Shown in pieces: positions 1 to 43,522 of a DNA stretch of 43,522 bases. The notes beneath the pieces were generated by a model. That model was given only the letters and a program-made list of their open reading frames with translations. It was not told the origin of the DNA and made no database searches. The position numbers were made by a program, and so were the translations under genes. Every line of letters begins with the position of its first letter. Position 1 is the stretch's first letter. The DNA is from a virus: positions 1-43,522 of the IMG/VR virus record IMGVR_UViG_3300038701_000859. One strand, written 5' to 3'.

Positions 1-510
1 AGTCTTGCTGACTACGAGTACCAGTTTTATACAACGAATGCGGGTAAAGAGCTTCTTACTGTCGAGGAGGCAGATCTTGAGGACGGTGATGTTCTTGCTT
101 ATGATGCTGCGGAACAAAAGTGGAAGAATTCTAATACTGATTCGCTTGTAGGCCCTCCGGGTCCAGAGGGTCCTGCCGGTCCTCAGGGTCCTGCTGGGGC
201 TGATGGTGCAACAGGTGCTACTGGTGCTACTGGTGCTACTGGTCCGCAAGGTCCACAAGGGCCTGCTGGTGCTGATTCTACGGTTCCAGGACCTACTGGA
301 CCGCAGGGACCTCAAGGCGAGACGGGGGCTCAGGGTCCGACAGGTCCTCAAGGCCCTGAAGGTGACACTGGTCCTCAAGGGCCCCAGGGTGTTCAAGGTC
401 CGCAGGGCGATCCGGGTGTTGTGGCTGCTACCGCTCCGTTGACTTACAATAGTGAGACGCAGACAGTAGCGTTGGGTGCGGTTACGTGGGGAAATTTGGC
501 CGGTTCGTAG
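1..510 (+). CDS. Collagen-like fibre protein, 3' part (continues from 43344 across the circular join)
   Basis: Open from the first base (frame 1), stop TAG at 508-510. After a leader also encoded at the window's end, bases 151-414 encode 14 Gly-X-Y triplets, a four-residue break (STVP) and 14 more triplets, rich in GPQ, GPA and GAT. Such repeats form trimeric collagen-like rods in phage fibres. The C-terminal tail of about 30 residues (from [11 protein letters not shown]) may seed trimerisation or end the fibre. Joined through the 122-bp terminal overlap to the GTG start at 43344, the full protein would be about 187 aa. Its N-terminus shares LPEGLS-x-x-DY with the preceding gene at 42817. Likely a virion fibre or head decoration; the exact site is unknown. 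Confidence 0.8.
3..124. repeat. Left copy of 122-bp terminal direct repeat
   Basis: Identical to 43400-43521. The flanking bases differ (positions 1-2 and 43522). The repeat lies inside one reading frame, so it is best read as the overlap of a circular or circularly permuted genome. Confidence 0.9.
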
Positions 511-512
511 GC

Positions 513-524
513 TAAAATTTACGT
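513..524 (+). promoter_or_regulatory. Candidate leaderless promoter (-10 box) for the 525 gene
   Basis: TAAAAT at 513-518 is followed by exactly six bases and then the ATG at 525, placing the expected transcription start on the A of ATG. No Shine-Dalgarno is present. The box sits just after the stop of the collagen-like gene. Confidence 0.45.
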
Positions 525-995
525 ATGATTACTTCACTAGGACAATCCCCGCAAGTGTACAACGCCGATTTGGGTGAGTTTGTACGTGACGACCATGTAA
601 GGTTTGCAGAAATTTTGCACGACCTGAAACCAACCTACAATTTGGTGTACATCCCACAGAAGGATCGGTCAGCCCCCGAAGAGCACCAAAAACCGTGGGC
701 CATCCTCGACAGGCCCGACAACGCACCCGAATACATTGTGCGTTACCTGTCGGAAGAGGAAATGAAAGAACCACACAAAGTGTTGGCATGGTTGTTTGAT
801 GGTGACATTGTGCGCCACGGTGCTGAGAACGTGTTTAAACGTATTGAAGCAGAAGAGCAAGCTAAACAGTTGTTGGATTTAAAACGGCAGGAAGACGAAT
901 TAGAAGATAGAATGGAACTTGCCGAATTTTTGGTTACAGGTGGGCGGGATAAAAAACACACGTTTAGTCATAATGGAAAGAAGTACGAACGATGA
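525..995 (+). CDS. Hypothetical structural-operon protein, 156 aa
   Basis: I do not recognise this protein. It lies between the collagen-like fibre and the head-tail adaptor and overlaps the adaptor start by 4 bases (ATGA), which suggests translational coupling. The N-terminal 90 residues look globular (VRFAEILHDLKPTYNLVYIP). A charged helical stretch follows (about residues 100-140, rich in E, R, K and L, coiled-coil-like), then a basic tail. The start lacks a ribosome site but has a TANNNT box six bases upstream. A virion assembly role is inferred only from position. Confidence 0.7.
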   Translation: MITSLGQSPQVYNADLGEFVRDDHVRFAEILHDLKPTYNLVYIPQKDRSAPEEHQKPWAILDRPDNAPEYIVRYLSEEEMKEPHKVLAWLFDGDIVRHGAENVFKRIEAEEQAKQLLDLKRQEDELEDRMELAEFLVTGGRDKKHTFSHNGKKYER

Positions 996-1645
996 GTTAC
1001 GCCGCTCCCACTAAAACAGTGCAGAACGTTATTGACTATGTTGTGCGTATTTTTGGTGACGAGTCAGGCGTGCAGTTAAGTACGACAGACATTATTCGGT
1101 GGATCAACGAAGCACAGCAGGAGATCAACCGACAGAACGCTGTCCTCCAACAGGTGGCTACTACGACGTTGAATGCGGATCAAGCCGATTATGACCTGTC
1201 AGGTATCAGCCCGCCCATTTATGAGATCAACAGCCTCCTGATTAATGGTCGACGTATTGGCAACATTTCGGTGTCCCAAGCTGAAGAGTCAATTTCGTTG
1301 GCTGACCCTGAAAGTGAAGAAACAGGGGCACCCCAGTTTTGGTACGAATGGGCACACCAAATTAGTTTCTGGCCGGTGCCCAGCACTGCGGGGACAATCA
1401 AAATTCGTTACACAGCAATTCCCGACAACATCGCGGCAGGTAACGATGTTCTGTCGTTAGCTGACGAATACTTTATGGACATCATCAACTATGTGTTGAA
1501 GATGGCTTACGAAATGGACGAAAACCCCGAAATGATGCAAATGAAGGCCGGGGAGTTTAGTCAAAGTTTGGCGGAACGTGGCGAACAGAACCGTAACGCA
1601 CAACACATGACTTACCCCACGATGACGGTATACGAACTGTTTTAG
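992..1645 (+). CDS. Head-tail adaptor / tail tubular protein A-like, 217 aa
   Basis: The N-terminus (NVIDYVVRIFGDE...TTDIIRWINEAQQEINRQN) matches the helical opening of podovirus adaptor proteins of the T7 gp11 / P22 gp4 type. A beta-rich centre (YEINSLLINGRRIG; FWPVPSTAGTIKIRY) and a C-terminal helical domain (YFMDIINYVLKMAYEMDE) follow. Length fits the roughly 190-220 aa family range. In these phages the adaptor forms a ring beneath the portal and carries the tail tube. It overlaps the upstream gene by 4 bases and is followed 9 bases later by the tube-like gene, the usual order. Confidence 0.65.
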   Translation: MSYAAPTKTVQNVIDYVVRIFGDESGVQLSTTDIIRWINEAQQEINRQNAVLQQVATTTLNADQADYDLSGISPPIYEINSLLINGRRIGNISVSQAEESISLADPESEETGAPQFWYEWAHQISFWPVPSTAGTIKIRYTAIPDNIAAGNDVLSLADEYFMDIINYVLKMAYEMDENPEMMQMKAGEFSQSLAERGEQNRNAQHMTYPTMTVYELF

Positions 1646-1654
1646 GAGCGGCCT

Positions 1655-3575: not shown

Positions 3576-4468
3576 TGGCTAATCCTTGGGATACTTCTGT
3601 TGTTCAAGAACGTAATCGACAAACTAAAAAAAGCGCTGCTTTAAAAGCGCAAGCAGCTAGTCGCGCTAGTGGTATGGACCCTAACAAATCTATTATTGGC
3701 GGTAAGATTGTTGGCGGTAGTGGATCGCCAGCAGCGGAAAGGCCCCGCAGTTCTAGCAATAATAATAATAATAATAACGACAGGGACGACAGCCCTCCCC
3801 CGCGTCAAGAAGAACGTTACTGGTACCAACCAGACTGGCGAGACAGCGCCTACAACCAACAACTTGCCTCCATCAACCGTGCCCTCGCAGACTTTGAAAC
3901 CGAACTCGGTTTGCAAGGTCAACGTTACGGTACCGACTACACGCAAAGTGTGCGTGAACTAGGTTACCGACCCGGGGAAGGTTTCTCCCCGACAGTTGAT
4001 GTGCTAAACCTGCCCGGTACCGCAATGGCTAGGACCGCTGGTGGTACACCGTCAGGTGCTGACGCCCTGTCGGCAATCCAACAAGCAATGATGCCTGTTA
4101 CCGGTTACGATCAGAATGAAGCTGGGCCGATGGCTCGCAGTGCTACACCAAAATACAGTGGTGGGCAGTGGGACTATGAGGGCGATTTTAACCCCTTTAG
4201 TGCCGCTTCTCGGGGTACTCGTAGTACTCGTGATGATTTTGCTGGCCGTGGCATGATTCGTTCTAGCGATTTTGCTCAAACGTATGCTGATTTCCAGGAC
4301 CGTATGCAAAACCAGTTACAGTCGATGGAACGTGGTCGTACACGGTTCTTTGAGGATGCTGCTTTGGAGGCTGCTCAGCGTCGTAGTTCTGCTGAGGAGC
4401 GTCGTCAGGCTGCCCGTGTTAATGCGATGGCTCGTGCTGCACAAGCCGGAGAGTATAGGACTCGATAA
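3575..4468 (+). CDS. Probable internal virion protein, 297 aa, with Asn-repeat linker
   Basis: Unrecognised. The N-terminus is basic (residues 1-45), then comes a low-complexity linker of Ser and seven Asn encoded by AAT repeats at 3758-3778. A central domain with YRPGEGFSPTVDVLNLPG follows, and a C-terminal Arg/Ala/Gln-rich helix (AAQRRSSAEERRQAARVNAMARAAQ) that should form a coiled coil. It is one of three consecutive helical proteins before the NlpC/P60 hydrolase. That arrangement resembles the ejection-protein block of T7-like phages. Ejection or internal head role is inferred. Confidence 0.6.
   Translation: MANPWDTSVVQERNRQTKKSAALKAQAASRASGMDPNKSIIGGKIVGGSGSPAAERPRSSSNNNNNNNDRDDSPPPRQEERYWYQPDWRDSAYNQQLASINRALADFETELGLQGQRYGTDYTQSVRELGYRPGEGFSPTVDVLNLPGTAMARTAGGTPSGADALSAIQQAMMPVTGYDQNEAGPMARSATPKYSGGQWDYEGDFNPFSAASRGTRSTRDDFAGRGMIRSSDFAQTYADFQDRMQNQLQSMERGRTRFFEDAALEAAQRRSSAEERRQAARVNAMARAAQAGEYRTR
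3758..3778 (+). repeat. AAT trinucleotide microsatellite inside a coding gene
   Basis: Six AAT units plus AAC encode seven consecutive Asn. Slippage by whole units keeps the frame and would change the linker length. Confidence 0.9.
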
Positions 4469-5595: not shown

Positions 5596-8500
5596 ATGAC
5601 CATCACGCCTCCTCCTTCAGATAATTTTTCTAATTACTATTCACAGTATTTAAGTCAGATTAGTCCGCGGCGGGGTACGCCCGCATCGGTAGAGTTCCCC
5701 GAGCGGACAAACCAATCACAAAATCTTGGTTTTCTTGGGCGCACTATTGACATTTTGTCGAGGCCGCTTCGCATTGTCAGCAACCCGGTGATGAAAGCTG
5801 TCGAGCTTCCTGAAAAGTTTGATGAAATTAAAGAACGTGAAGCTGCTGGTGAGGATGTTAGTGCCGGTGAAAAGTTTGCTCCTGTTGGCGAACTTCTGGC
5901 TGCGCCGTTTACGGGTTTCTTTTCAGATGACCCTAGTAATAAGCCTTATTGGGCTGACATTATTGAAAAAGCTGAAGATGTTGAGAATCGTAACGACCCA
6001 AATTATGTAGATGTTGCAAATAACGTTAATCCTACGTATAAGGGTGTAGTTGGTTTTTTGGGTGACGTTGTTCTTGATCCACTTACGTGGGTCCCTGGCG
6101 CTGCGCTTGCTAAAGGTTGGGGAAAAGCCGGAGAAGTTCTCCGAGGTGCTAGTAAATCATTACCAGGTGCGTCTAGTAAAGCAGCTAAAGAAGCTGCCGA
6201 GTCTTCTGCGGCCAGAGTTATTCGTGAAGCTCCGACACCCCCACCTACGTTAGACGATGCGACTAAGACACCTAACCCCGCTCAGGCCGCCCAGTTTATT
6301 CGGGAGAACATTGACGCAAGTAAGCCTGCTAAAGAGGCAGCTATTTCGCCTTTGCGGAAACTTATTAACGATAACAAAATTTTTCCGAAGGGTGCTTCGG
6401 GTGGTTTGAAACGTCGTAACCAGATGGATAGTTTCTTGAAGAAACTTCAAGAGCCGATGCCTGTACCTAAAATTACGGTACCTAGAGAAATTCTTGATTT
6501 TGATCAGTGGTCTGACGAAGTTGCTAGCCTTGCGGAAGCTGGAAAACTTGACGACATTGCCATTCCGTTTGACGAAATTGGTGGCGTGAAACTGGAAAGC
6601 CCCACTTTACAGGGCCTTGAGAACACTATTAACAAGTTGCCTAAAGCTGAGTACGATCGGTGGCTTGATGAAAACATTGACACTATTGATTCGATTACTG
6701 AACCGTTGTATCAGAAGTATCGTCAGGCGGCTGAGACTAACCCTGGTGTTAATTTGTTTGGGGAACTGTCGGATGATGCACCAGTTGTTCGCGGGGCGGC
6801 TGCGGCTGTTGCTCGCCTTGCGGAAATGGAAGGCGTTGAGCTAGAGAACGCTAGGTTTATTTTCGACACGGGCGGTAACCGGTTGTTTGATGCTTTGCGT
6901 CAGATGGATGAGCCACAGTTTGCGAAGTTTTTGGATGATGCACAGTATGTGTTGTCTCGTAATGGCGTTGTGGAAGCAATGGGTAACGTTGTGGGCGGTA
7001 GTTCTTCTGCGAAGCTTTTGAAATCATTTGATATCAGTGTTCCACAGTTTAGGAATGCTCAGCAGGACATGGTTCAACGGCTTGCTGCGGTTGTGAATGG
7101 TGCTCCTCCGGCCCCTGTCGACGAGGCTGCTGAGAGTCTTGCTAATGATGATGGTTTTGTTGAGATGTTGCGTGCGATGCTCAGTCGGGACAACATCCGA
7201 GTTAACAGGATGAATTTTGATAACACGGATGTATTGCAGGACATTGTTCGTGCAATGTCGCAGGCTGGTGCGATTACGATGCGAACTAATTTTGATGAAG
7301 CGTATTTGAAGAAGAACTATAAGTTCATTCTTGAGAATGGTGTGTTGAAAGTTCTTAAAACGGATCCTGTTAAGGGTGGTGGTGTTGCTCGGGTTCAGGA
7401 TACTTATGGTTCGTTTACTCAGATGACTTTTTACCAGAATCTTGGTAAGGGTATGAGTGTTTTGTTTAGGGGTATTCCTGAACGCGACGCGGCGGGCCGT
7501 GTTTTGCGTGATGCGGAAAATAAGCCAATTTACATTGAACCGCCTAAGTTTTTGAAGGGTGTTAGGAAGCGTAATGCGTGGCAAGGTTTTGACCTGTCGG
7601 CTAACTTGGAGTCCGCAACTTTGCAGTCGATGCGTGCCTGGAATGATTGGGTGTCGGCTCGCGGTATTCCTATTACTATTGATGCTTTTTATGGTTCTGA
7701 GCGTGTCACTGAGGCGCTTCGTTTTGAAGACATTTACGAAGTGTTGGGTCGGAACGTTGATGACATAAACCGTATGCGTCTTGTCATGTTTAATGGTGAT
7801 ACGGGTATGGATGTAACTTTGTTGGGTGATGCGACTATTGCTGCGATGCGTGGGGCTAGTCAGTCTGAAGTGTTTGAGATTTTGCGCCGCGGAACTAACC
7901 GTTGGAATGATAAGCCGAACAATAACTGGTTAGCTAAAGACACTCCCGCTAACCCAGAAGATGTTACGTACTATTTTGGTCACCGAGCTGGTGCTAACAG
8001 GCCGACAGATGGTGACGGCTTCCGTTGGGTACCTAACAAAAACGAAAAGGGCGAAACTATCGGGCATTATGCCCAGTGGGATCCGGTTCGTAATGCGGAG
8101 ATTCTTGCTGACGCGATTGTCCGCAGCCGGGGTACGTTAGATGAGGTTGCTCAGATTCGCAAGCAACAGTACCTTGCTCGGGATATCACTGATTTCCAGA
8201 CGGTTTCTCCGATGGTTGCTCAGAACCTTGTCGACATGTTGAAAGATCCGACACGCAATGCGGAAGCAATGTTGGCTATTCGCAACGTGGGCAAAATGTT
8301 GAAAGATTTTATTGCACCGATTGATGTGAGTGAGGTTGGTGCAGTGTTTTCTGCGGAGGCTTTGCGGGCTGCTATTCCTCAGTCGGTTCGTAATGCGGTG
8401 AAGGCTGCTGAGGATATTGTGACTGCCCGTAAAACGGGTAACCGCAATGATGTGTTTGAAGCTCGTCAGAAGGCGGTTAAGAATGACCGTAAGGCTGCTG

Positions 8501-10833
8501 AGTCTATTAAAGAAGATGGCCTTCGTGCAGCTGACGAGGTTCAGGCTAACCCGAGTGGTTTTGATGATGCGATGCGTGACCAGGCTGAGTCGGTTAAAGA
8601 ATACCAAGACACAATTTTGGAATATAACATTGCTAAGGCTTCTTCTGGTTTAGATCCGATTACGGGTATTGCAACTTCTCGTGAACGTGTCCTTAGTGCT
8701 CTTAATAGTCGTTGGCGGATGGGTACTCGTGACCATTTAAGTGCTTTCTTAAAGTTTTTGGCTCCTAACCGACAGGCGCAAAACTGGGCAAAGCAGATTG
8801 AAAAACGGTTACGTGTTATTAAAAATGACAAAGCCCTTGGAGGCACTGTTGCCGCCCGTACACCTATCCTTGTTCAAGCGATGCGTAACATTCAAACAGG
8901 TAATAAAGCTGCCGACGAAGCTAATGATTTGGTTCGTTACGCACAAACGTTGTTGGAACGTGAAACCGCTCCGTTGTTTGGTACAGCTAATGATTTAATT
9001 AAGACAATTGCGGATACTGGTTTTGGTCGAAGTGGTGCCACTATTGAGGAGATTGCTAAGTCTCTTGAGTCTCACGCAGTGTTGGGTAAAACGGGTACTG
9101 GCATGGCTCGGTTGCCGGAAAATGGTGCATGGTTTGATATAGACCTTGCTGAACGTGTTGCCGCAGAGGAAGGAATTGACGTTGTGTCGGCGGCTCTTCG
9201 GCAGTGGTCAAACTGGGGTGACATTGAGGACCCGGTTGGGTTTATTGCCAGTGTAAACGCGGCAGTGTTTAATGTGGCAACTAAGGCAGCTTTTATTGAC
9301 AATTTTGTGTTGGATATGGCACCTAAAGGTTTGCTTACTCGGAGTGCTGCGGAAGCAAAATCTAAAGGCTTTGTGCAACTTGTCGCTGACGGTAAAACAG
9401 CTTTCGGTGCTTACCTCCCGGACAATTTGTATGTTGACCCCGAGATTGCGTACATTTTTGGTCGAATGGATGAAGCGTTTAGGACGTCTCGACAGTTGGA
9501 GTCCGAGTTTGGTCGTTGGTGGACCGACACGATGGATCCGTTTATGTTGACGTGGAAGTACACGGTTACTGTTATTCGCACTGGTCACCATATCCGTAAC
9601 GAAATTGGTGGTCAGTCGATTCGGTGGGTTGCTTTGGGTACGAATGGTTTTGCTCGCGGGGAACGCAATGCGTACAAGATTATGTCGTTTGACAACAATT
9701 ACAAAGATGTGGACATTCTTCGCGGTTTAACCCAGTTGGGCGAGCAAGCACCTGCCGGTGGTGAAACAGTGATTAGCGGTCGCTTAGGTAAACTTACCGC
9801 TAACGAAGCTTTGTCGGACTACAACAACTCTTTGAAAGCTGTTGGTAGGCGAGCGGAAGACATTTACGACGAAGGTTTAGACGGTATTGCAAAACGTATT
9901 GCAGACGTTGGGGGTGCTGCGGTCACCCTCGGTCTTGGTACTCGCGGTGGCCGTCTAGAGCAACTTGCTTTGGGCGTGTCGGAGTTTGTAGAAAACAAAG
10001 CTAGGCTTGCCCATTACTCACAAGTGATGGATCAACTTAGCCAGGTTACTGCTTCTGGTAAACCCCGACAGTTTGTTCGAGGTTTGGGTAACGTTGTTAC
10101 TCCTAAGACGATGGCTGAAGCAAGACAAATTGCTATCGAGTCGGCTCTCAAATACCACCCCGACCCTGCTTTGCTTACTGCTTTTGAGGCAAAATACATG
10201 CGTCGTATTTTCCCCTTCTACAACTGGTACAAGCAAGCCCTTGTTGCTTTGGTTGAATCTGCCATGATCAACCCCGCAAGGACGCTAACCACTATTCCTA
10301 AGGCAACCTACAATGCCGCTATCGCTGCGGGTATTGACCCTTACTCGCTATACGATCCTTTCCCCGAAGATCAAATGTTCCCCAGCTTCCTCACAGAAGA
10401 CATGACTGGGCCTCAGTTCCAATTTGAGGGTCAATACATTGCGATAAATCCTGGTTTTGCCAACATTGATGTGTTTAGCGACACGTTCTCTGACCCAGTA
10501 GCGGGCATCGTACAAATGACTAACCCCATTATTCGCACACCTATTGAATTGCTTGCAGGTTCTAGGTTGGGTACTCAAGCACCTATTCGTGACGTCAGCG
10601 ACTTTATTGACTCGTCTATCCCTGGTATCAACTATGTGTCGAACATCACTGGTCGCAGTGTGACGGGTGGTTTTGAGGAACAATCTCGTATTGCTTCGGG
10701 GGATAAGCAAGCGTTTGACCAATGGTTGTCGGCATTCAACTGGGCGTTTGGTCTTGGGGTAAGGAACTATAGTAGACCTAGTTACATTAATTACGCCGAA
10801 ATTGAGGCGCGAAACGAGGCGGCTAACCAATGA
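5596..10833 (+). CDS. Giant internal virion (ejection) protein, 1745 aa
   Basis: The largest gene in the genome. The N-terminus includes a hydrophobic stretch (YKGVVGFLGDVVLDPLTWVPGAALAKG). Long helical regions follow (AESIKEDGLRAADEVQANPS). The C-terminal third contains WKYTVTVIRTGHHIRNEIGG and FEAKYMRRIFPFYNWYKQAL, and the tail is Asn/Pro-rich. This architecture recalls large internal or ejected proteins of marine phages, comparable in role to T7 gp16. I see no transglycosylase Glu motif or protease triad I would trust. It overlaps the NlpC/P60 hydrolase gene by 4 bases (ATGA), suggesting the two act together during DNA entry. A tape-measure role is less likely because no long-tail genes are present. 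Confidence 0.65.
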   Translation: MTITPPPSDNFSNYYSQYLSQISPRRGTPASVEFPERTNQSQNLGFLGRTIDILSRPLRIVSNPVMKAVELPEKFDEIKEREAAGEDVSAGEKFAPVGELLAAPFTGFFSDDPSNKPYWADIIEKAEDVENRNDPNYVDVANNVNPTYKGVVGFLGDVVLDPLTWVPGAALAKGWGKAGEVLRGASKSLPGASSKAAKEAAESSAARVIREAPTPPPTLDDATKTPNPAQAAQFIRENIDASKPAKEAAISPLRKLINDNKIFPKGASGGLKRRNQMDSFLKKLQEPMPVPKITVPREILDFDQWSDEVASLAEAGKLDDIAIPFDEIGGVKLESPTLQGLENTINKLPKAEYDRWLDENIDTIDSITEPLYQKYRQAAETNPGVNLFGELSDDAPVVRGAAAAVARLAEMEGVELENARFIFDTGGNRLFDALRQMDEPQFAKFLDDAQYVLSRNGVVEAMGNVVGGSSSAKLLKSFDISVPQFRNAQQDMVQRLAAVVNGAPPAPVDEAAESLANDDGFVEMLRAMLSRDNIRVNRMNFDNTDVLQDIVRAMSQAGAITMRTNFDEAYLKKNYKFILENGVLKVLKTDPVKGGGVARVQDTYGSFTQMTFYQNLGKGMSVLFRGIPERDAAGRVLRDAENKPIYIEPPKFLKGVRKRNAWQGFDLSANLESATLQSMRAWNDWVSARGIPITIDAFYGSERVTEALRFEDIYEVLGRNVDDINRMRLVMFNGDTGMDVTLLGDATIAAMRGASQSEVFEILRRGTNRWNDKPNNNWLAKDTPANPEDVTYYFGHRAGANRPTDGDGFRWVPNKNEKGETIGHYAQWDPVRNAEILADAIVRSRGTLDEVAQIRKQQYLARDITDFQTVSPMVAQNLVDMLKDPTRNAEAMLAIRNVGKMLKDFIAPIDVSEVGAVFSAEALRAAIPQSVRNAVKAAEDIVTARKTGNRNDVFEARQKAVKNDRKAAESIKEDGLRAADEVQANPSGFDDAMRDQAESVKEYQDTILEYNIAKASSGLDPITGIATSRERVLSALNSRWRMGTRDHLSAFLKFLAPNRQAQNWAKQIEKRLRVIKNDKALGGTVAARTPILVQAMRNIQTGNKAADEANDLVRYAQTLLERETAPLFGTANDLIKTIADTGFGRSGATIEEIAKSLESHAVLGKTGTGMARLPENGAWFDIDLAERVAAEEGIDVVSAALRQWSNWGDIEDPVGFIASVNAAVFNVATKAAFIDNFVLDMAPKGLLTRSAAEAKSKGFVQLVADGKTAFGAYLPDNLYVDPEIAYIFGRMDEAFRTSRQLESEFGRWWTDTMDPFMLTWKYTVTVIRTGHHIRNEIGGQSIRWVALGTNGFARGERNAYKIMSFDNNYKDVDILRGLTQLGEQAPAGGETVISGRLGKLTANEALSDYNNSLKAVGRRAEDIYDEGLDGIAKRIADVGGAAVTLGLGTRGGRLEQLALGVSEFVENKARLAHYSQVMDQLSQVTASGKPRQFVRGLGNVVTPKTMAEARQIAIESALKYHPDPALLTAFEAKYMRRIFPFYNWYKQALVALVESAMINPARTLTTIPKATYNAAIAAGIDPYSLYDPFPEDQMFPSFLTEDMTGPQFQFEGQYIAINPGFANIDVFSDTFSDPVAGIVQMTNPIIRTPIELLAGSRLGTQAPIRDVSDFIDSSIPGINYVSNITGRSVTGGFEEQSRIASGDKQAFDQWLSAFNWAFGLGVRNYSRPSYINYAEIEARNEAANQ

Positions 10834-12049: not shown

Positions 12050-12147
12050 AATGTTCCTTGATCGTCTGTGCAGTGTGATTCTGCCAGTTCCCGGTCAATG
12101 TCTCGGTAACCGCATTCGGGGCATTGGTAGTAGCCGATCTTACTCAT
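12043..12147 (-). CDS. Tiny zinc-finger protein, 34 aa
   Basis: ATG at 12147 lies inside the end of the polymerase gene, and the stop at 12043-12045 overlaps the resolvase start. It encodes C-P-E-C near the N-terminus and H-C about 17 residues later, a plausible zinc ribbon or knuckle. Coupled overlaps on both sides support translation. Role unknown; a cofactor of the polymerase or resolvase is only a guess. Confidence 0.55.
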   Translation of the reverse strand: MSKIGYYQCPECGYRDIDRELAESHCTDDQGTFW

Positions 12148-13906
12148 CTACCCAGTATCCCACATCGACATCGAACTTGACGTCAAAGGTTATGTCGCCG
12201 GTGACAGCGTTGACGTCTTCCATTACATGTTGGATCTTGTGAATGTATTCGTCTGCCAGCTCTTCTTTTACTTCAAACGTGATGGAGTCGTGTACTTGTA
12301 GCAGGATCCGACAGTCATCTGATTCGAGTTCTTGCCATGCTTTAACCATGATGCGTTCTACAATGTCTGCTGCTCCGCCTTGGATAACACTGTTCATGGC
12401 TTTGTAGGCTTCGGTTTTGTCGTCGAAGTGTCGGTATCTGCCGGACCATAGTTTGATGATGCCTGTCTGTTCGACTCGGGCTGTGCATCGTTCGTTGAAT
12501 TGTTTAAAGTTGGGGTAGGTGGCGAAATAGTTTTCCCGTATTTTTCGGGCTTCTTGTTTGGTTACTCCGAAGGCTGACATGAGGCGTTGTTCTCCGGCAC
12601 CGTATTGCATTGAGTAGACGAGGGTTTTAGTTTCGTGCCTGGTCATGCCTAACTGTTTGGACATTTCGGTGAAAATGTCTCGACCTTCGTTGAATACTTG
12701 TTTGAGTTCTTCTTCACCTGCGTAGGCTGTGGCGAGTCGTAATTCGAGTTGGCTGAAGTCTGCGTTAATGAGGACGTAACCTGGTTGGGCGATGAAGCAT
12801 TCTTTGACTTTGCCGTTCCAGGCTTTGTCGGATGTTTTGGGGATCTGTTGCAGGTTAGGTTCAGAACACGACAGGCGGCCTGTAGCTGTTCCGTGTGTTT
12901 TGTATGAGCATCGTAATCTTCCATCAGAGTCGACAAGCTCTAGGTAGGGTTTGTAGGAGGCGCTGACGGCTTTCTGCCAGCCTCTGAAGTTTTTGATGAG
13001 TTTTGCTGTGGGGTTGTTCATTTTTTCGAGCAGCTGGTCGTACATGCCCATTGCTTCTTTGTCGAAGCTGGGTGATCCGGTGCGTGGGCTTGTTTTAACA
13101 ACGGGTAGGCCCAGTTGGTCGATGAGTAGTTCTTTGAGCTGTTTGGGGCTTGCAGGGTTGACTTGCAATTCGTCTATGATTTGTGACATTTCTGAATTTC
13201 CGATGTCTACATATTTGGATGCAAGTTGTTGATCAATTCGTACCCCGTGTCGTTTCATGGACATGAGTAGCCGGATCAGGTTTTGTTTGTGTTCCCAGAA
13301 ACCTTCAGGGAGGTTACCCCATTCGGGGGTTTTCGACAGGTGGTCGTAGAGCCGCCAGGTAAGTTCTGCATCTCGAATGGCGTAGGGCCACATTTGTTCC
13401 CAAGTTGTGTTGGGCCAGCCCAACTTTTTTTCTTTTTCAAGTTCGTCGTCTACATATTTGCCGACGTCTTTGAGGTAGTACTGTGCGAGTGAGTCGAGCC
13501 CTTTGTTGTAGGGTTTGTTTTCGTTGATGAGGTGGGCCATTGTGGGGACGTCCACAAAGTTTTTGTCTGCTACTTCAATGCCCAGTTTTTCGAGTGCGAG
13601 GATGTCAAATTGGGCATTTACGAACACTAACGAAAAATTTGAGTCCGTGAGAGCCTCTCTAAGCGCCGATTTCACTTCGTCGGTACAATTATGCCCTGTG
13701 GGGTGGTCGAGCGGTATGTAGTGGCTGTACGCCCTTCCTGAAGCATAGGCCGCGAAACTCACTCCAATGGTGCGTGTTTTGGGGTCAAAAAGGCGCAAAC
13801 CTGTCGTCTCAGTGTCCACCGCCACAAAATCAGGTTCAGCTGCCACCAAATCCGACAGCACCTGCAAACTTTGCTGGTCAATGTCTTCAAATATCAATGT
13901 CGCCAT
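12140..13906 (-). CDS. polA: Family A DNA polymerase with 3'-5' exonuclease, 588 aa
   Basis: The N-terminal proofreading domain has DTET (D31/E33), NAQFD (97-101) and YAIRD (175-179). The polymerase domain has TATGRLSCSEPNLQQIP, motif A NADFSQLELR (D383), motif B RHETKTLVYSMQYG (423-436) and motif C QVHDS (H539, D540). There is no 5'-3' exonuclease domain, as in T7. The residue aligned with E. coli Phe762 is Tyr431, the T7-like state. It is the replicative enzyme of this phage, encoded with helicase, primase, SSB and clamp candidates. It overlaps the helicase gene by 20 bases. Confidence 0.95.
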   Translation of the reverse strand: MATLIFEDIDQQSLQVLSDLVAAEPDFVAVDTETTGLRLFDPKTRTIGVSFAAYASGRAYSHYIPLDHPTGHNCTDEVKSALREALTDSNFSLVFVNAQFDILALEKLGIEVADKNFVDVPTMAHLINENKPYNKGLDSLAQYYLKDVGKYVDDELEKEKKLGWPNTTWEQMWPYAIRDAELTWRLYDHLSKTPEWGNLPEGFWEHKQNLIRLLMSMKRHGVRIDQQLASKYVDIGNSEMSQIIDELQVNPASPKQLKELLIDQLGLPVVKTSPRTGSPSFDKEAMGMYDQLLEKMNNPTAKLIKNFRGWQKAVSASYKPYLELVDSDGRLRCSYKTHGTATGRLSCSEPNLQQIPKTSDKAWNGKVKECFIAQPGYVLINADFSQLELRLATAYAGEEELKQVFNEGRDIFTEMSKQLGMTRHETKTLVYSMQYGAGEQRLMSAFGVTKQEARKIRENYFATYPNFKQFNERCTARVEQTGIIKLWSGRYRHFDDKTEAYKAMNSVIQGGAADIVERIMVKAWQELESDDCRILLQVHDSITFEVKEELADEYIHKIQHVMEDVNAVTGDITFDVKFDVDVGYWVDE

Positions 13907-15128
13907 CCTTATTTTTGTACTGATCGTACAAGTGAGCCAAGTCAGTAGTGAAGCTCAGGTTCTCCGGGTTGCGAGTAATTTGAAACGCATCCAACGTGGG
14001 ACCTAAACGGTTCTTCAGCACGTCAACCTGCAACAGGTCACCTTCCACTACTTTCAACGATATCGCGAAATCAACATCTGTCGTGATATAGGTAGATCCA
14101 TATATGTCCGACAGTTCCACACCTTTCTTCTGACCGTCATTTGGTTTCTTACGGTTGTGGTGAATGAGCACCATAGAACACTTATACTTCTCCCGCACCA
14201 CCGACAGGTAATGAATCAACGTCTTCACAGCCTGCTCATCGGTCAGCTCCTTCGAGCTAATCTTCTGCAATGAGTCGATCACAATCACGTCAGGCATGTG
14301 GTCATTCATCAGCTGATCGAAAAACACTTGTCCTTCGGGTGAATCTAAATGGATGGGCATACCAAACGGTGCCACCATGAAGTTCCTGTTCAACGTGTTC
14401 TTGTCAGGGTAGGCCCCACCAATCGTGCCCATAAAAAGGTTCAATGGGGCGGCACTCATCTCCAACGACAGGAACATGACTTTCTTTGACCCAGCTTTGT
14501 TATCCCACTTCAAAAACTTTTTCTCACCTAATGCTAAATGTGCTGCCAACGCAATAGACAACTGTGTCTTACCCGTCCCAGGGTAACCCGTAATCAAACC
14601 AAACCCCGACTGAGCCAACAACCCGTCAAGGATCCACTCCACTTTAAAATCAGCATCAACAAAATCTTGATACCCGTACACCAGTTTCGATTCGCCCAAC
14701 ACACCACCAGTGCTCGTGGCGGACTGCATCATCGACGTCAGGTCAACGTTCTGCAACGAATTGTAACCATGCTTTTGCCTAGCACGGTTAATGAAATCGA
14801 CAATGCGACGGTCACGGTCATGACGAGTCTTATACTTGCCCCACCTGTCGTCAGCGTCATACAAAATGGTTGCTATTTGTCCATCAGACCAACCAAGCTC
14901 AGCACCAAGGTGCGCCAGTTCAGACATGGCAGCTGAACGGTCCCGCTTAGGCGGTCCCGCAAAGTCAGCCGGTCCTCTACCGAACTTCTCCCAAAGCTCT
15001 GTCGTCCAATGCGCCAGTGTGCGAACTTCATCTAACGGTGGTAGTTCCCCCAACACCAAGTCGCCTTTAACAATGCGACGTGCTGAGGGGATGCGGTCAA
15101 AGTCTTCAATGCTGTATGTCTTCGTCAC
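13887..15128 (-). CDS. RepA/DnaB-like replicative helicase, 413 aa
   Basis: Residues 1-125 form a helical N-terminal region reminiscent of primase C-terminal or helicase-loading domains (LGAELGWSDGQIATILYDADD). The C-terminal RecA-like ATPase has Walker A GYPGTGKT (181-188), Walker B VIVIDS and a sensor-like VLIHHNRKK. I prefer the GTG at 15128, which overlaps the primase stop (GTGA) and has AAGGA 9 bases upstream; TTG at 15137 lies too close to that site. This fits RepA-type hexameric helicases that unwind the phage fork. Its neighbours, polymerase and primase, support this. Confidence 0.8.
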   Translation of the reverse strand: MTKTYSIEDFDRIPSARRIVKGDLVLGELPPLDEVRTLAHWTTELWEKFGRGPADFAGPPKRDRSAAMSELAHLGAELGWSDGQIATILYDADDRWGKYKTRHDRDRRIVDFINRARQKHGYNSLQNVDLTSMMQSATSTGGVLGESKLVYGYQDFVDADFKVEWILDGLLAQSGFGLITGYPGTGKTQLSIALAAHLALGEKKFLKWDNKAGSKKVMFLSLEMSAAPLNLFMGTIGGAYPDKNTLNRNFMVAPFGMPIHLDSPEGQVFFDQLMNDHMPDVIVIDSLQKISSKELTDEQAVKTLIHYLSVVREKYKCSMVLIHHNRKKPNDGQKKGVELSDIYGSTYITTDVDFAISLKVVEGDLLQVDVLKNRLGPTLDAFQITRNPENLSFTTDLAHLYDQYKNKDGDIDI

Positions 15129-15673
15129 CTCTCCCAATCCTTCACAATCACAGGCATGTCACGTTTCTGATTAGTTGTCCGTATCGGTCGCAGGATTTGG
15201 TCAGCATCCCAGCCTGACGTGTCCGCATGCATCAGGTAAGCCAATGCACGGTTGCGATCCTCCAACTGTTCAATGTCGGTAAGGAACTTATCCAACTTCC
15301 AATAACAATGCTCATGCCCTTCAATCGATGACTGCACCACCAATGTGGGTTTCGGTGCAATGTCTTCATCCCATTCTTTTGGTGCGTTGCCGTCAAAGTC
15401 GACCCACAACGACCAACTGCCTAACACGTTTTCTTTCACCGGCTTAGCTGCCTTGTAGATAGCTGGTGAGAAAAACACGTTGGCGTGTACTGCCGCCCAT
15501 TTGAGTGTGTGCCTGACGACAGCTTTACGTTGCCTGGGCCACGCGAACATGTAAGGCGTCCATTTGCCTTCATATTCGACAGGGGTGTACACGTATGTGG
15601 GGTCAATGGATACTTCCTCAACGCCCCACAAGTAGTCGTAAAACTCTGTAAGTTCTTCTTCTGCCTGTTCCAT
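15125..15673 (-). CDS. AEP-type (RepB-like) DNA primase, 182 aa
   Basis: Two motifs of the archaeo-eukaryotic primase fold are visible: an hhhDhD element in SWSLWVDFDG and an S-x-H element in QSSIEGHEHCYWKL. A downstream ADQILRPIRTTNQK segment resembles the basic third motif. The start is ATG at 15673 with AAAAGGA upstream; the open frame runs further 5', but that part would cross the SSB-like gene's 3' end and a strong hairpin. It would make primers for the family A polymerase. It is coupled to the helicase by a GTGA overlap. Confidence 0.7.
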   Translation of the reverse strand: MEQAEEELTEFYDYLWGVEEVSIDPTYVYTPVEYEGKWTPYMFAWPRQRKAVVRHTLKWAAVHANVFFSPAIYKAAKPVKENVLGSWSLWVDFDGNAPKEWDEDIAPKPTLVVQSSIEGHEHCYWKLDKFLTDIEQLEDRNRALAYLMHADTSGWDADQILRPIRTTNQKRDMPVIVKDWER

Positions 15674-25070: not shown

Positions 25071-25089
25071 ACCCCGACAGGGCAAAAAA

Positions 25090-27660: not shown

Positions 27661-28185
27661 ATGCAAAACCCCTACGTGAGACTTCGTGAACTGTGCGGCA
27701 TGTCGCAAAAAGCGTTCGCTGCTAAACACGGCTTCGGCAAAATGACAATGGTGTATTTAGAGTCGGGGATGTATACGTCTGTGTCGGATCGTCAAAATGT
27801 GGCGTTGGGGAAGGAATGCTATGAGAAAGGCGTCAACGCTAAAGAGGTACTTTTTGAGGAGTATCAGGTTAGGTCGCTTAATGAAGCATATTATCAGTGG
27901 CGTGTCAGTGAACGTGTGGAACACGCGCCTACCGTTTTGGCTAAGGTTTCGCCTCCTTTTGTGGGCGATTCGGAGTTGTCTCCTGTTGCTTGCCTTGTTC
28001 GTGATACGACCAAATCTCTTCAAGGCTTCTGCAAGGTTTTAAAACTGCCTTCGATCACCATGTCCAGGTATATGCGTGGTGAAACAATTGCAATGCCCGG
28101 TGAGTTGCGTACCGCCCTGTCGGACGCAAAATGGCCGTTCGTGGACGAACTAGAAACGGCGCAAGCAAAATGGCGGGTACGCTGA
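27661..28185 (+). CDS. XRE-family regulator with probable second HTH, 174 aa
   Basis: N-terminal HTH: RLRELCGMSQKAFAAKHGFG then MTMVYLESG, the XRE pattern. A second HTH-like unit lies at about residues 125-160: SLQGFCKVLKLPSITMSRYM then RGETIAMPGELRTAL. The linker is charged. ATG 27661 is preferred over 27643 because of the leaderless -10 spacing. Likely a transcriptional regulator of this divergent region; no integrase is present, so a lysogeny repressor role is unsupported. Stop overlaps the next ATG (TGATG). Confidence 0.75.
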   Translation: MQNPYVRLRELCGMSQKAFAAKHGFGKMTMVYLESGMYTSVSDRQNVALGKECYEKGVNAKEVLFEEYQVRSLNEAYYQWRVSERVEHAPTVLAKVSPPFVGDSELSPVACLVRDTTKSLQGFCKVLKLPSITMSRYMRGETIAMPGELRTALSDAKWPFVDELETAQAKWRVR

Positions 28186-28397: not shown

Positions 28398-28754
28398 ATG
28401 GCTTTTTATGTTGCAAAATCACGTACCGGTTGGAAAGTAACCGACGACGACCGAAACCTCATCAGCGACCACGAAACAAAACGTGCCGCACAAGACGAAA
28501 TGGTGGCCCTGTCGGCCGCGCAAGACATGGAAGCTGGCGGTGAAGCAGGTTTACCCGAAAACTACCGACCCGCGTTAGCGGAAGACGTACCCCCAGGTGG
28601 GGCATGTGGAACATGCACATTTTTCGACGAAAGCAAGATCTCCGAAGATGGCACCCAAGCATGGTGCACCAAATGGGACGACTGGGCAGACGGCGGCTTC
28701 TACTGTGACTCGTGGGAACAAAAACAAATGGGCCAAGAAAAAACCCCCGCCTAA
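28398..28754 (+). CDS. Cys-rich protein, 118 aa
   Basis: N-terminal FYVAKSRTGWKVTDDDRNLIS looks like a small beta domain, then a helical part. A C-terminal four-Cys unit follows (GGACGTCTFFDE ... AWCTKWDDWADGGFYCDSWE), likely binding zinc or an Fe-S cluster. The stop codon lies in the loop of its own terminator. I do not recognise a family with confidence. Confidence 0.7.
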   Translation: MAFYVAKSRTGWKVTDDDRNLISDHETKRAAQDEMVALSAAQDMEAGGEAGLPENYRPALAEDVPPGGACGTCTFFDESKISEDGTQAWCTKWDDWADGGFYCDSWEQKQMGQEKTPA

Positions 28755-35633: not shown

Positions 35634-35984
35634 ATGAGCATGTCTGAGATGGGCGGTAGCCCGTTTAGTAGTGTTTCTGACCTGTCGGATAACCCTACGG
35701 GTGGTTTTCTGCCGGATGAGAATGAGAAACCTCCTTCGCAGGTTGTTGACGATTTCCACACGTATAGCGACGTAGATGCCCGCTCAGAGTCCCAACATCA
35801 CACTTTGGGGGCTAACCCTACCCAGGCGTCTCCAGGCGACCACACGCACGATGGTGGCGACTCCGTGCTACTTCTGGAGGGGTTCACTATTACGGGTGCT
35901 CAAACGTCGGAAGCGTGGGCTCAATCAATTAATGCTATTCTTGTTCGTCTTGGCGCGATCGATAATTCAACTCCTGCACCCTGA
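35634..35984 (+). CDS. Small structural-type protein, 116 aa
   Basis: Polar N-terminus, then SQHHTLGANPTQASPGDHTHDGGDS, a His/Gly/Pro motif recurrent in phage virion proteins, and a C-terminal helix (SEAWAQSINAILVRLGAID). AGGAGG site upstream; stop overlaps the terminase ATG (TGATG). Possible head decoration or neck protein. Not a clear small terminase. Confidence 0.55.
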   Translation: MSMSEMGGSPFSSVSDLSDNPTGGFLPDENEKPPSQVVDDFHTYSDVDARSESQHHTLGANPTQASPGDHTHDGGDSVLLLEGFTITGAQTSEAWAQSINAILVRLGAIDNSTPAP

Positions 35985-37576
35985 TGGTTACTAAACAAAG
36001 ACAACCGACAGCTAATGAGTTGTTGCAGCTTGCTGTTGCCGAGTTGGATCAAAGTATCCACAAGCCCAACATTCTCAACTATGGGGAAAAAGATTACCCT
36101 GAACAGTTGAGGTTTCATAAGTCTCAAGCTCGCGGACGGTTTATTTCTGGAGGTAACCGTGGGGGAAAAACCGACGCTGAAGTCGTTGAGTCTATCTGGT
36201 GGGCAACTGATACTCACCCATATCTTGAACGACCGCCTCATTGGGGCACTGGACCAGTACAGCTCCGTTTTGTCGTCGTCGATGTAGCTAAAGGTATTGA
36301 GCAAATCATTCTGCCGAAAATGAAACGGTGGATTCCCCGTTCGTATCTTATTGATGGTGATTGGACAAAAAGTTGGGACAATACGAACTACATTCTCACG
36401 TTCGACAACGGGTCCACGATCGACTTTGTGACGTGGGGCATGGACATGATGAAGTTGGGCGGTGTCCCAAGACATGGCATCTTTTTCGATGAGGAGCCAC
36501 CTCAAAACATTTTTAACGAATCGATGATGCGTCTTATTGACTACAACGGTTTTTGGGTAATTGCGGCCACTCCGACAAAGGGTATGGGGTGGACGTTTGA
36601 TTTGTTGTGGGAGCCCGCCCAAGAAGGCAAAATTGAAGGTATCGACACTTTCACCCTGTCGGCGGAACAAAACCCGTACATTGAAGCTGACAACGATGAC
36701 ATGAATTTTTACATGATGGGTATGGATAAAGAGGAAAGGGAGATCCGTGAGAAGGGTAGTTTTGTTGCTCGTAGTGGTTTGGTATTTCCTGATTTTGGTC
36801 AAAACATTGAACGTTACATTGTAGATTTCAACCCTGGCGATGTGCCGCCAACGTGGGCAGTTTACGCTTCTGTCGACCACGGGCTTAATAACCCGACAGC
36901 GTGGTTGTGGCACGCAGTGTCACCGCAGGGTGATATTGTGACGTTTGCTGAGCATTACCAATCAAACATGGTTGTTGCGGAACACGCCAACGTGGTGAAA
37001 GAACGGGAACGTTCGTGGGGGCGCAAACCTGACGATGTGGAACGTATGGGTGACCCTGCGATGCGTCAACGTAACGGTGTGACAGGTACCAGCATTGTGC
37101 AAGAGTATGCACTCAACGAGGTGTACATCAACGTGGAGGGTATTCCCCACGATGTGATGATCGGTATTGAAAAAATGCAAGCATACCTTCGCATCCGTGG
37201 TGACAGTTATTGGGGTCCTGACCGCCCCAAATGGGTTATTTCTCGTAATTGTCCTAACTTTATTCGTGAGATGAAGAAGCTGCGGTGGGCGTCGTATGCG
37301 TCAGATAAGACGTCGTATGAGATGAACAAGCAAGAAGTGGTGCATAAGAAGGATGACCACGCTTTTGATAGTGCCCGCTATTTTGCGACGACACGCCCCG
37401 ATTTGAAACCGTATGTGGATCGGTTGGCTACCAAAGATAAGCCAACTACGCTAAGCTATGAGGAGATGTGGTTGAAACTTCGCAACGATCCTGCGGTGAC
37501 TTTTGCGGAGGACCAAGGCACAGGGGACGGACCTTTGTGGACTACGGAAAGAGATTACGGAGAGTTATATGACTAG
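35984..37576 (+). CDS. terL: Terminase large subunit, 530 aa
   Basis: ATPase: Walker A SGGNRGGKT (55-63), Walker B GIFFDEE (D169, E170), coupling motif ATPTKG (195-200). Nuclease: SVDHG (D298), RMGDPAM (D357) and KKDDHAFDSARY (about 456-466), the RNase H-like acidic set. Length is normal. It cuts concatemeric DNA and pumps it through the portal, whose gene follows two small overlapping genes later. The start overlaps the preceding stop. Confidence 0.95.
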   Translation: MVTKQRQPTANELLQLAVAELDQSIHKPNILNYGEKDYPEQLRFHKSQARGRFISGGNRGGKTDAEVVESIWWATDTHPYLERPPHWGTGPVQLRFVVVDVAKGIEQIILPKMKRWIPRSYLIDGDWTKSWDNTNYILTFDNGSTIDFVTWGMDMMKLGGVPRHGIFFDEEPPQNIFNESMMRLIDYNGFWVIAATPTKGMGWTFDLLWEPAQEGKIEGIDTFTLSAEQNPYIEADNDDMNFYMMGMDKEEREIREKGSFVARSGLVFPDFGQNIERYIVDFNPGDVPPTWAVYASVDHGLNNPTAWLWHAVSPQGDIVTFAEHYQSNMVVAEHANVVKERERSWGRKPDDVERMGDPAMRQRNGVTGTSIVQEYALNEVYINVEGIPHDVMIGIEKMQAYLRIRGDSYWGPDRPKWVISRNCPNFIREMKKLRWASYASDKTSYEMNKQEVVHKKDDHAFDSARYFATTRPDLKPYVDRLATKDKPTTLSYEEMWLKLRNDPAVTFAEDQGTGDGPLWTTERDYGELYD

Positions 37577-41492: not shown

Positions 41493-41494
41493 GG

Positions 41495-41521
41495 GATAGT
41501 TCTCCTTAACTATCGAAAGGA
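41495..41521 (+). promoter_or_regulatory. Leader hairpin and ribosome site of the capsid gene
   Basis: Perfect 7-bp stem (41495-41501 with 41508-41514) whose loop is CTCCTT, complementary to purine-rich ribosome sites, directly followed by AAAGGA (41516-41521). Confidence 0.5.
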
Positions 41522-41529
41522 AATATGTA

Positions 41530-42750
41530 ATGCCTGCAACTCTTGCAACGATTGAGTCTTACCTCAAGGAGGTGTACCAGGGTCGTATCCGCGAGCAGCT
41601 TAACGACGAAATTGTCGCTTTGAAGCGTATTACTCGTAGTGGTTCTGGTGTCACCAACGAAACTGGTGGTAAGTATGTAACCTTCCCGATCCACACTCGC
41701 CGTAACTCGGGTATTGGTTCGCGGTATGAGTCTGAAGCGCTGCCGACTCCTGGTCAGCAGGGTCACGCTGCGGCTCGTATTGGTCTGAAGTATGCTTACG
41801 GTGGTGTGCAGTTGACTGGTCAGGCTATCAGCCTGTCGGACACTGACGCTAAAGCGTTTGCTAAGGCTTTGGACACTGAGGTTGAGGGTCTGAAGAATGA
41901 CCTGAAGAAGGACATGAACCGTCAGATTTACGGTACCGGTAACGGTGCTATTGGTGTTGCTTCTGGCGCTAACACTGGTGCGGTTGTGCCTGTGTATGAT
42001 GCTCGCCTGTTCCAGGTGGGTATGGTTGTGGACACTCAGACTGGTGCCACTGTTGACAACTCTGATCTTGTTGTCGCTTCTGTGGACCTGACTGCCGGTG
42101 CGAACACTGTTACTTTGACTACTACTCCTGGAACTGCTCTTGCTGACGGTGACATCATCGTCCGTGCGGGTTCTGGTGTGGGTGCTTCTGGTAACCGTGA
42201 ACTTACTGGTTTGGCTGCGATCATCAGCGATTCGGGTACTTTGTACAACATTGACCCGTCGACTGAGCCTGAGTGGAAGTCCACTGTTGACTCTAACGGT
42301 GGTACCAACCGCGCCCTGTCGGAATCTTTGATGATTAAGATGACTGACGACATCCGCGTTAAGGGTGGTTCTACTTCCCTTATTTTGCAGTCGCTTGGTG
42401 TTCGCCGTGCGTACTTCAACCTCCTGTCGCAGTTGCGTCAGACGGTTAACACGCAGGAGTTCACTGGTGGGTTCACTGGCCTGGCGTTCACTACTGACCG
42501 TGGTGAGATCCCTGTCGTGGCTGACCCGGATGCTCCGCTGAACAAGCAGTGGTTCATCAACGAGGATGCGGTGACTTACTACCGCGACGAGGACTGGCAC
42601 TTCATCGACCGTGATGGTTCGATGTGGAAGCAGGTCCGCGACTCGAATGGTGACTATGACGCATACTACGCTCGTATGGTGGAATACCACGAGCTTGGTA
42701 CTGACCGTCGTAACACTCACGGTGTTATTGAGGACATTACTGAAGCTTAG
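41530..42750 (+). CDS. Major capsid protein, 406 aa
   Basis: N-terminal helix (TLATIESYLKEVYQGRIREQ), VTNETGGKYVTFPIHTRRNSG and GLKYAYGGVQLTGQAISLSD resemble HK97-fold capsid proteins of podoviruses. TEVEGLKNDLKKDMNRQIYG supplies the long helix region; the middle Thr/Ala-rich beta stretch (DLTAGANTVTLTTTPG) could be an inserted domain. It follows the scaffold gene with a strong ribosome site. The high share of in-frame Gly-GGT and Thr-ACT codons fits heavy expression. Confidence 0.9.
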   Translation: MPATLATIESYLKEVYQGRIREQLNDEIVALKRITRSGSGVTNETGGKYVTFPIHTRRNSGIGSRYESEALPTPGQQGHAAARIGLKYAYGGVQLTGQAISLSDTDAKAFAKALDTEVEGLKNDLKKDMNRQIYGTGNGAIGVASGANTGAVVPVYDARLFQVGMVVDTQTGATVDNSDLVVASVDLTAGANTVTLTTTPGTALADGDIIVRAGSGVGASGNRELTGLAAIISDSGTLYNIDPSTEPEWKSTVDSNGGTNRALSESLMIKMTDDIRVKGGSTSLILQSLGVRRAYFNLLSQLRQTVNTQEFTGGFTGLAFTTDRGEIPVVADPDAPLNKQWFINEDAVTYYRDEDWHFIDRDGSMWKQVRDSNGDYDAYYARMVEYHELGTDRRNTHGVIEDITEA

Positions 42751-42763
42751 TCTTCGTTCTCAG

Positions 42764-42798
42764 CGGCCCGTCCCCTATAATGGTTGGGGGACGGGCCG
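42764..42798 (+). terminator. Hairpin after the capsid gene, possible partial terminator
   Basis: Perfect 12-bp stem (42764-42775 with 42787-42798); the 11-nt loop contains TATAAT. Followed only by ACCTTTT, so termination is probably partial, or it trims the capsid mRNA. Confidence 0.55.
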
Positions 42799-42816
42799 TC
42801 ACCTTTTGGAGTTCTA

Positions 42817-43335
42817 ATGGAATTTGAATACCCGTTCTATGCGACAAGCACGGTTTTGCCGGAGGGTTTGTCAACTGACGATTACCGTCACGAGTTTTAC
42901 CGCAATAACCGTTATATGGGTATTGAGCAGGAGTATACGGTTGCGGGTGGTACTTCTGGTACTCAGCCTACGTTTGATGGTGACCCGCTTTTTTCTGGAC
43001 ATTATGTAATTTTGGGTAGCACTGTGTATTTTGACGTGCAGGTCGATTTTGACAACATTACGTCTTTTGGTACGGGCCAGTATTATGTGTCGCTTCCGTT
43101 TGCGTCGAAATACGGGGCAATGTTTCGCGGCGGATGTTTGCACGATGCTAGTGAGACACGTGAATATCACATTTCTGGACATGTGGATGCTGGTTCTAAT
43201 GAGTTGCAGTTGTTTACAACAGATCTCTCTGGTCAGAGGTTGTACGATTTTGCTTTTTCTCAGGGGGAACCGGTCACGTTGACGACAGCGGACAATTTTC
43301 ATATTGCTGGTACTTATATTGTGGATGACAGTTAG
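42817..43335 (+). CDS. Virion fibre/decoration protein, 172 aa
   Basis: ATG at 42817 has TTTTGGAG upstream. N-terminus includes VLPEGLSTDDYRHEFYRNN, close to the next gene's [19 protein letters not shown], so both may dock at the same site. The rest is beta-rich (HYVILGSTVYFDVQVDF; TREYHISGHVDAGSNELQLF). Directly after the capsid gene, hence head fibre or decoration is a reasonable guess. Confidence 0.6.
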   Translation: MEFEYPFYATSTVLPEGLSTDDYRHEFYRNNRYMGIEQEYTVAGGTSGTQPTFDGDPLFSGHYVILGSTVYFDVQVDFDNITSFGTGQYYVSLPFASKYGAMFRGGCLHDASETREYHISGHVDAGSNELQLFTTDLSGQRLYDFAFSQGEPVTLTTADNFHIAGTYIVDDS

Positions 43336-43343
43336 GAGTAGTC

Positions 43344-43522
43344 GTGCAGGATAAAATTGTCTTTTTTCAGTCCGCTTCGGAGTTGCCGGAGGGTTTGTCT
43401 CTTGCTGACTACGAGTACCAGTTTTATACAACGAATGCGGGTAAAGAGCTTCTTACTGTCGAGGAGGCAGATCTTGAGGACGGTGATGTTCTTGCTTATG
43501 ATGCTGCGGAACAAAAGTGGAT
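43344..43522 (+). CDS. Collagen-like fibre protein, 5' part (continues at base 1)
   Basis: GTG start with AGGAG 5 bases upstream. Encodes DKIVFFQSASELPEGLSLAD and onward; the frame runs off the window in the 122-bp terminal overlap and continues in frame from base 4 into the Gly-X-Y repeats. Serves as attachment domain of the collagen-like fibre. Confidence 0.8.
   Translation, partial: MQDKIVFFQSASELPEGLSLADYEYQFYTTNAGKELLTVEEADLEDGDVLAYDAAEQKW
43400..43521. repeat. Right copy of 122-bp terminal direct repeat
   Basis: Identical to 3-124; see that entry. Implies a unit length of 43,397 bp if closed. Confidence 0.9.

Follow-up and report, generated by a model that had tools for sequence, protein, structure and literature searches.

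The stretch of DNA analyzed here, referred to below as the window, is the IMG/VR virus record IMGVR_UViG_3300038701_000859 at its full length of 43,522 bases. It encodes a phage replication module with a predicted primase of the archaeo-eukaryotic primase (AEP) superfamily, and it is strewn with copies of one short word, CTGTCG (CGACAG where the word lies on the minus strand), which we propose to be the template sites at which this primase starts its primers. The word is present in 98 copies on both strands between positions 59 and 43461, 54 of them as CTGTCG and 44 as CGACAG. The core is preferably preceded by C and followed by G (C-CTGTCG-G), and the extended forms CTGTCGG/CCGACAG and CCTGTCGG/CCGACAGG have 41 and 16 copies, respectively. 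A preliminary description had arrived at nearly the same numbers by hand (about 97, 40, and 15).

On the plus strand, CTGTCG starts at positions 59, 747, 1451, 1961, 2994, 4067, 5122, 5140, 5798, 6766, 7115, 7594, 11223, 11885, 12016, 13801, 14078, 14845, 14999, 15768, 16740, 17245, 19068, 19704, 20896, 21903, 22771, 23021, 24831, 25643, 26081, 26756, 28117, 28509, 29568, 30874, 32787, 34557, 35119, 35682, 36656, 36870, 37846, 37960, 38877, 38927, 39078, 39786, 40044, 41833, 42316, 42424, 42512, and 43456. The minus-strand copies, given as CGACAG starts, are at 338, 707, 1083, 1130, 1833, 2322, 2664, 3102, 3778, 3787, 3990, 5004, 5099, 8003, 8770, 9490, 10066, 10906, 11235, 12309, 12869, 13334, 13853, 14109, 14202, 14466, 15517, 15577, 16683, 16830, 17032, 17698, 18593, 20139, 25075, 31215, 33823, 34993, 36006, 36894, 38203, 39165, 41202, and 43283. 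The full octamer occupies ten plus-strand positions as CCTGTCGG (746-753, 4066-4073, 7593-7600, 20895-20902, 28116-28123, 28508-28515, 35681-35688, 36655-36662, 41832-41839, and 42315-42322) and six minus-strand positions as CCGACAGG (337-344, 2663-2670, 8769-8776, 14201-14208, 17031-17038, and 25074-25081). The first 20.2 kb hold 34 minus-strand copies, and three (25075, 31215, and 33823) lie strictly between 20139 and 34993, a region in which the plus-strand copies remain roughly even. This local scarcity on the minus strand may reflect fork direction.

The excess of the word is confirmed by several background models. The 98 observed copies compare with 23.6 expected under an order-2 and 36.0 under an order-3 Markov model, and the pair ranks first among all hexamers of the window under both. 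One-base neighbors are often rare (CTGTCA 14, CTGTCC 12, CTGTCT 14, and CTCTCG 2 copies). Copies fall in both orientations and in several reading frames, as the preliminary description had noted, and in genic as well as intergenic DNA. The opinion given in that description that codon bias alone was an unlikely cause holds up against 200 synonymous-codon shuffles inside each gene, which left the proteins and the per-gene codon usage unchanged: the genes contain 90 copies versus 18.9±4.3 after shuffling (maximum 31; z about 16), and the excess is found in the sense (49 versus 9.3) and the antisense direction (41 versus 9.6). Similar counts from a third-order Markov or a codon-shuffled background had been named there as grounds for giving up the claim, and neither background comes near the observed number. 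Another hexamer, TGGCCA, departs in the opposite direction, with one copy versus 14.5 expected under the order-2 model, which looks like restriction-site avoidance.

The primase is encoded on the minus strand at 15125-15673 (ATG at 15673) as a separate gene of 182 amino acids that comprises a catalytic domain. An AF2 model of this domain has a pLDDT of 95.7, and when compared with 350,542 PDB chains using Foldseek, every match at E<=1e-3 is an AEP primase, namely the cyanophage S-2L PrimPol (2.4e-7) or RSF1010 RepB' (4e-7 to 7e-7); the next match is a CRISPR-associated PrimPol (CAPP, 1.3e-3). The AEP motifs (acidic D-x-D, S-x-H, and a later acidic residue) can be recognized as VDFDG, HCYW, and LRP..TTN in the window, and VDFDG, QSS...HxYW, and D..GW.. 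LRPP.T.N are nearly invariant in 34 relatives. The Pfam models RepB_primase and Prim-Pol give no match for the window protein and 14-19 bits for its relatives, below the cut-offs of 22.8-24.3. By modeled fold and motifs, the protein belongs to the AEP superfamily, and primer synthesis is its predicted activity.

The adjoining minus-strand open reading frame (ORF; 13887-15128, probable GTG start at 15128) encodes a RecA/DnaB-like replicative helicase (Pfam AAA_25 1e-22, DnaB_C 2e-9), and its start overlaps the primase stop. The N-terminal ~120 residues of the helicase protein (about 14730-15119) form a helical domain with a weak resemblance to the helix-bundle/PriCT domains of AEP primases. The model is all-helical (pLDDT 85); its first fold match is the pRN1 PrimPol (probability 0.90, E 0.32, which is not significant alone), and RepB' and the pRN1 helix bundle are within the first seven. 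A frameshift was rejected as the cause of the split between the two ORFs; because members of the clade repeatedly show the same split, and because the two ORFs share an overlapping GTGA, we take the separate genes (13887-15673) as real. The two are separate, overlapping genes in most of the window's clade and one fused protein in other relatives. The module further contains, all on the minus strand, a family A DNA polymerase (PolA, 12140-13906), the expected extender of primers; an AAA/Sak4-like ATPase (16252-17151); a PD-(D/E)XK Cas4-like exonuclease (17141-18088); and an SNF2-type helicase (19230-21152), a near-constant companion of the word.

By major capsid protein and terminase, the closest phages are Microbacterium phage Shocker (57% and 49% identity), Cellulosimicrobium phage DS1, Arthrobacter phage Jasmine, which is a podovirus (PMC5513430), and the metagenomic ctEqG8. 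Judged by these proteins, the window is an actinophage akin to these four. Jasmine, whose laboratory host is Arthrobacter sp. ATCC 21022, has gp39 as its primase-helicase. A close capsid relative is encoded in 61 IMG/VR loci, and in many of the longer ones CTGTCG is again one of the top hexamers. Outside the replication module, one gene of the window ends in a collagen-like Gly-X-Y coding repeat (125-480), for which tail fiber genes of Klebsiella phages give a short DNA match.

Unbiased counts in the relatives returned top words that are related yet differ from phage to phage, all of which fit the pattern CTGT-spacer-G: CTGTGG in Jasmine (101 copies versus 16 expected), CTGTAG in ctEqG8 (98 versus 28), CTGTCG in DS1 (116 versus 28; the spelling of the window), and CTGTAAAG in Shocker (45 versus about 0). 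A scan for the primase domain added 80 loci, and 35 full or partial genomes were assembled for word counts. In each of the 35, a single spelling is clearly enriched. CTGTCG persists at ~2-fold excess beside CTGTAAAG in the three Shocker-like genomes, three Jasmine-like contigs use CTGTGG, and CTGTTG is clearly dominant in none of the 35. Shocker (L070) also has a second repeat, TACCCTA, with 25 copies versus 0.8 expected, 21 of them intergenic (e.g., at 522, 538, 695, 721, 879, 1915, and 1927), which is probably a regulatory element unconnected with the primase word.

When the window is aligned with its relatives, copies of the word survive ~1.5 to 2 times as often as control hexamers that match them in composition and are compared at equal identity (for example, 0.31 versus 0.16 at 70-75% identity), and other copies have been gained and lost. 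These alignments indicate that individual sites are under selection, with turnover. Protein divergence at the dialect switches shows a slight excess only, in primase and helicase. Within the helix bundle (L070-L073, contigs G001-G030), the residue after a W-x-K motif is Tyr in all inspected CTGTCG and CTGTAAAG phages, including the separate lineage G001, and Phe in the CTGTGG/GTGTGG and most CTGTAG phages; the exceptions are the CTGTAG phages G028 and G029, which have Tyr. This position is a possible specificity residue, to be taken as a lead only.

To find which gene the word follows, we used phages of distant hosts, in Actinobacteria and Proteobacteria, whose primase is homologous and whose annotated virion genes differ. 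GTGTGG is the top hexamer in Gordonia phages Cozz and Orla, Serratia phage Serbin, and Pseudomonas phage Lebethron, and it is the word of Huwbert. The words are CCTGTG/CTGTGG in Brevundimonas phage Strzyga, TGTGGC/GTGTGG in Microbacterium phages Golden, AxiPup, and Eleri, CTGTGC in Curtobacterium phage Yappy, and TGTGCC(T) in Clavibacter phage CMP1. Synonymous-shuffle z scores in the phages that share the primase but not the virion genes are 2.7 to 13.5, and the control phage TaeYoung, from Jasmine's host, lacks Jasmine's word (CTGTGG z -2.3). In a survey of 58 genomes, a word of the class TGTN[GC]/TGTAAA, drawn up after the dialects were known, ranks first in 33 and among the top three in 45 of the 49 with the primase, and the best such word ranks 4 to 83 in the nine without it. 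Yappy has primase and word with no detectable RecA-like helicase or Cas4-like homologue, and CMP1 has both with no detectable PolA, RecA-like helicase, Sak4-like ATPase, or Cas4-like gene. D29 has PolA, helicase, and Cas4-like homologues and lacks both primase and word. The primase is the sole tested gene found in all carriers, and such a word is present in nearly every genome that has a homologue of this AEP domain.

The sites are also spaced in a characteristic manner. A word needed for its frequency alone would be expected to scatter or cluster as other words do. Across the 35 genomes, the per-strand evenness measure is 0.92±0.02 of random expectation for dialect words versus 1.17 for matched hexamers (P 2e-13; the genomes are kin to one another, and P values overstate their independence). 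In Huwbert, the smallest gap is 630 bases among the 37 sites of one strand and 1058 among the 26 of the other, with coefficients of variation of 0.31-0.32; 20,000 random draws yielded no match to this spacing. No other hexamer of the genome is as evenly spaced as the word in Huwbert, Golden, AxiPup, Eleri, CMP1, and Jasmine. In most genomes, the joint evenness of both strands equals that expected for two independent strands, which argues for a signal that is read on single strands. An orientation bias near the terminase (~0.65 of sites co-oriented) was dropped as evidence, as it lies inside the range of control words.

We consider it likely, from the comparison of these genomes, that words of the CTGTCG family are template sites where primers are begun genome-wide by the phage's own primase, and that selection keeps them spread over both strands. 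What we observe is that the word is associated with the primase gene, that sites in the family are even on each strand, and that the primase has an AEP fold; from this we infer how the word would act. The AEP domain (15125-15673), together with the putative helix bundle that opens the helicase ORF (13887-15128), would read single-stranded 5'-CCTGTCGG-3', with GTC-G playing the part of GTG in pRN1 ORF904 and of GTGG in NrSPol. The primer would start at or just 5' of the word and would then be extended by the phage PolA. A spacing of ~0.8-1.0 kb per strand in the window, and of 1.8-2.6 kb in Huwbert, would bound the length of Okazaki fragments. Dialects would arise by drift of the reader's specificity, with the genome sites following.

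Several observations weigh against this interpretation. Four dialect changes are needed on the primase tree and four on the capsid tree, so that the trees do not single out the primase. The spacing argument rests on the relatives, not on the window, where sites are supplied on both strands with a joint evenness of 0.85 (P 0.03) and a per-strand value of 1.02 (P 0.63); the latter is not significant because minus-strand sites are scarce at 20 to 34 kb. Sites are likewise not even in Serbin, Lebethron, and Strzyga. Among the controls, Arthrobacter phage Abba (L329-L331), which lacks this primase, carries an unexplained excess of TGTGGG (21 versus 4 expected). In KSY1, whose primase is distant, the TGTAGG signal is weak. 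The best fold match is the remote AEP PrimPol of S-2L, a phage in which no word of this kind is seen. The after-the-fact word class of the survey belongs here too, as does the presence of the SNF2 helicase in nearly every carrier, including CMP1.

The last point bears on the possibility that a different replication-module protein binds the word, for instance the SNF2 helicase, or a packaging or nucleoid protein with DNA-binding activity. SNF2 was undetected in the word carriers G030 (42.4 kb) and G017, although these contigs may be incomplete, and SNF2-type helicases are not known as readers of such words. Evenness on each strand with independence between strands fits reading on single strands and is not predicted for a double-stranded site, be it one for methylation or for a nucleoid protein. 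A Chi-like signal, which would regulate a phage nuclease-helicase (the Cas4-like exonuclease and the SNF2 helicase) or a host nuclease of the RecBCD/AddAB/AdnAB type and so protect or recombine phage DNA, has some points in its favor: Chi sites are likewise short, strand-specific, and over-represented, and most carriers have the Cas4-like exonuclease and the Sak4-like ATPase in their replication module. CMP1, however, has an even TGTGCC word with neither gene detected, Yappy has no Cas4-like gene, and D29 and S-2L have Cas4-like homologues but no word. A host-encoded Chi, moreover, predicts neither differing words within one host genus nor words common to several phyla. We regard a Chi-like signal as very unlikely, and a site for another module protein as at least as unlikely.

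A functionless bias of codons, mutation, or the host's own vocabulary appears exceedingly unlikely. It is true that the excess falls from four-fold to below three-fold under the third-order Markov model, but the shuffle z score, the equal excess in sense and antisense, the failure of one-base variants to be raised alike, and a spacing more even than random all speak against bias. Genome scans gave no host locus. The phages argue indirectly against a host-wide word: Microbacterium phages differ in their word, one word is common to phages of Gammaproteobacteria and of Actinobacteria, and the control phage of Jasmine's host lacks Jasmine's. Of the four meanings that the preliminary description had listed without ranking, primase start sites have thus gained support, and a Chi-like signal and a methylation or nucleoid site are disfavored.

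Finding primase sites normally takes laborious biochemistry, and such sites are regarded as short and plentiful; in this phage, a signal of 6-8 bases would shape a whole genome. If the word does mark primase start sites, primase specificity would be readable from sequence alone for many uncultured phages, and Okazaki-fragment length would be predictable and testable in cultured ones such as Jasmine and Huwbert. Each primase should then work best on its own dialect among single-stranded CCTGTCGG, CCTGTGGG, CCTGTAGG, and CCTGTAAAGG, and the family would supply natural cases in which the specificity of DNA reading has switched (C, A, G, or AAA spacer) within one primase lineage. Start sites of this kind also suggest a reason for over-represented words in phage genomes that have so far gone unexplained. 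A broader idea is that a large group of AEP-primase phages begin the lagging strand at fixed, selected positions, that an even grid of words on each strand sets Okazaki length, and that primase and grid switch dialects jointly, giving each lineage a private replication code; we hold it tentatively and with some doubt.

Template sites of several AEP primases are known. The helix bundle of pRN1 ORF904 reads GTG, the phage NrS-1 polymerase (NrSPol) uses GTGG/GTGA and TTTGGTTA, hPrimPol and others use CCTG, and GP55 of lactococcal phage 1706 uses CCAAC (PMC8718748, PMC12205980); PriCT domains are common partners of such primases (PMC5862659). The window primase resembles those of pRN1, NrS-1, and 1706 in its AEP catalytic fold, its likely helix-bundle partner, and a proposed short G/T-rich template signal, and the GTGTGG and CTGTGG dialects contain the GTGG preferred by NrSPol. 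The known sites come from biochemistry, with no genome-wide excess or even spacing described in the literature examined, whereas the word reported here is longer, strongly in excess, even per strand in many relatives, and variable in spelling between phages. We found no earlier description in the open-access literature of a primase word spread genome-wide.

The T7 gp4 protein is likewise a phage primase-helicase that primes the lagging strand at short template words, GTC extended to (G/T)2GTC (PMC12839067), but it is of the DnaG/TOPRIM type with a zinc domain, unlike the window primase. In T7, we found no AEP homologue and no hexamer with joint excess and evenness. Chi, HIP1, and DNA uptake sequences are short words that are strongly over-represented across the chromosome of a cell. 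The CTGTCG family shares with them its shortness and strong genome-wide over-representation; unlike them, it is specific to the phage, follows the phage primase, and is respelled among phages of one host genus.

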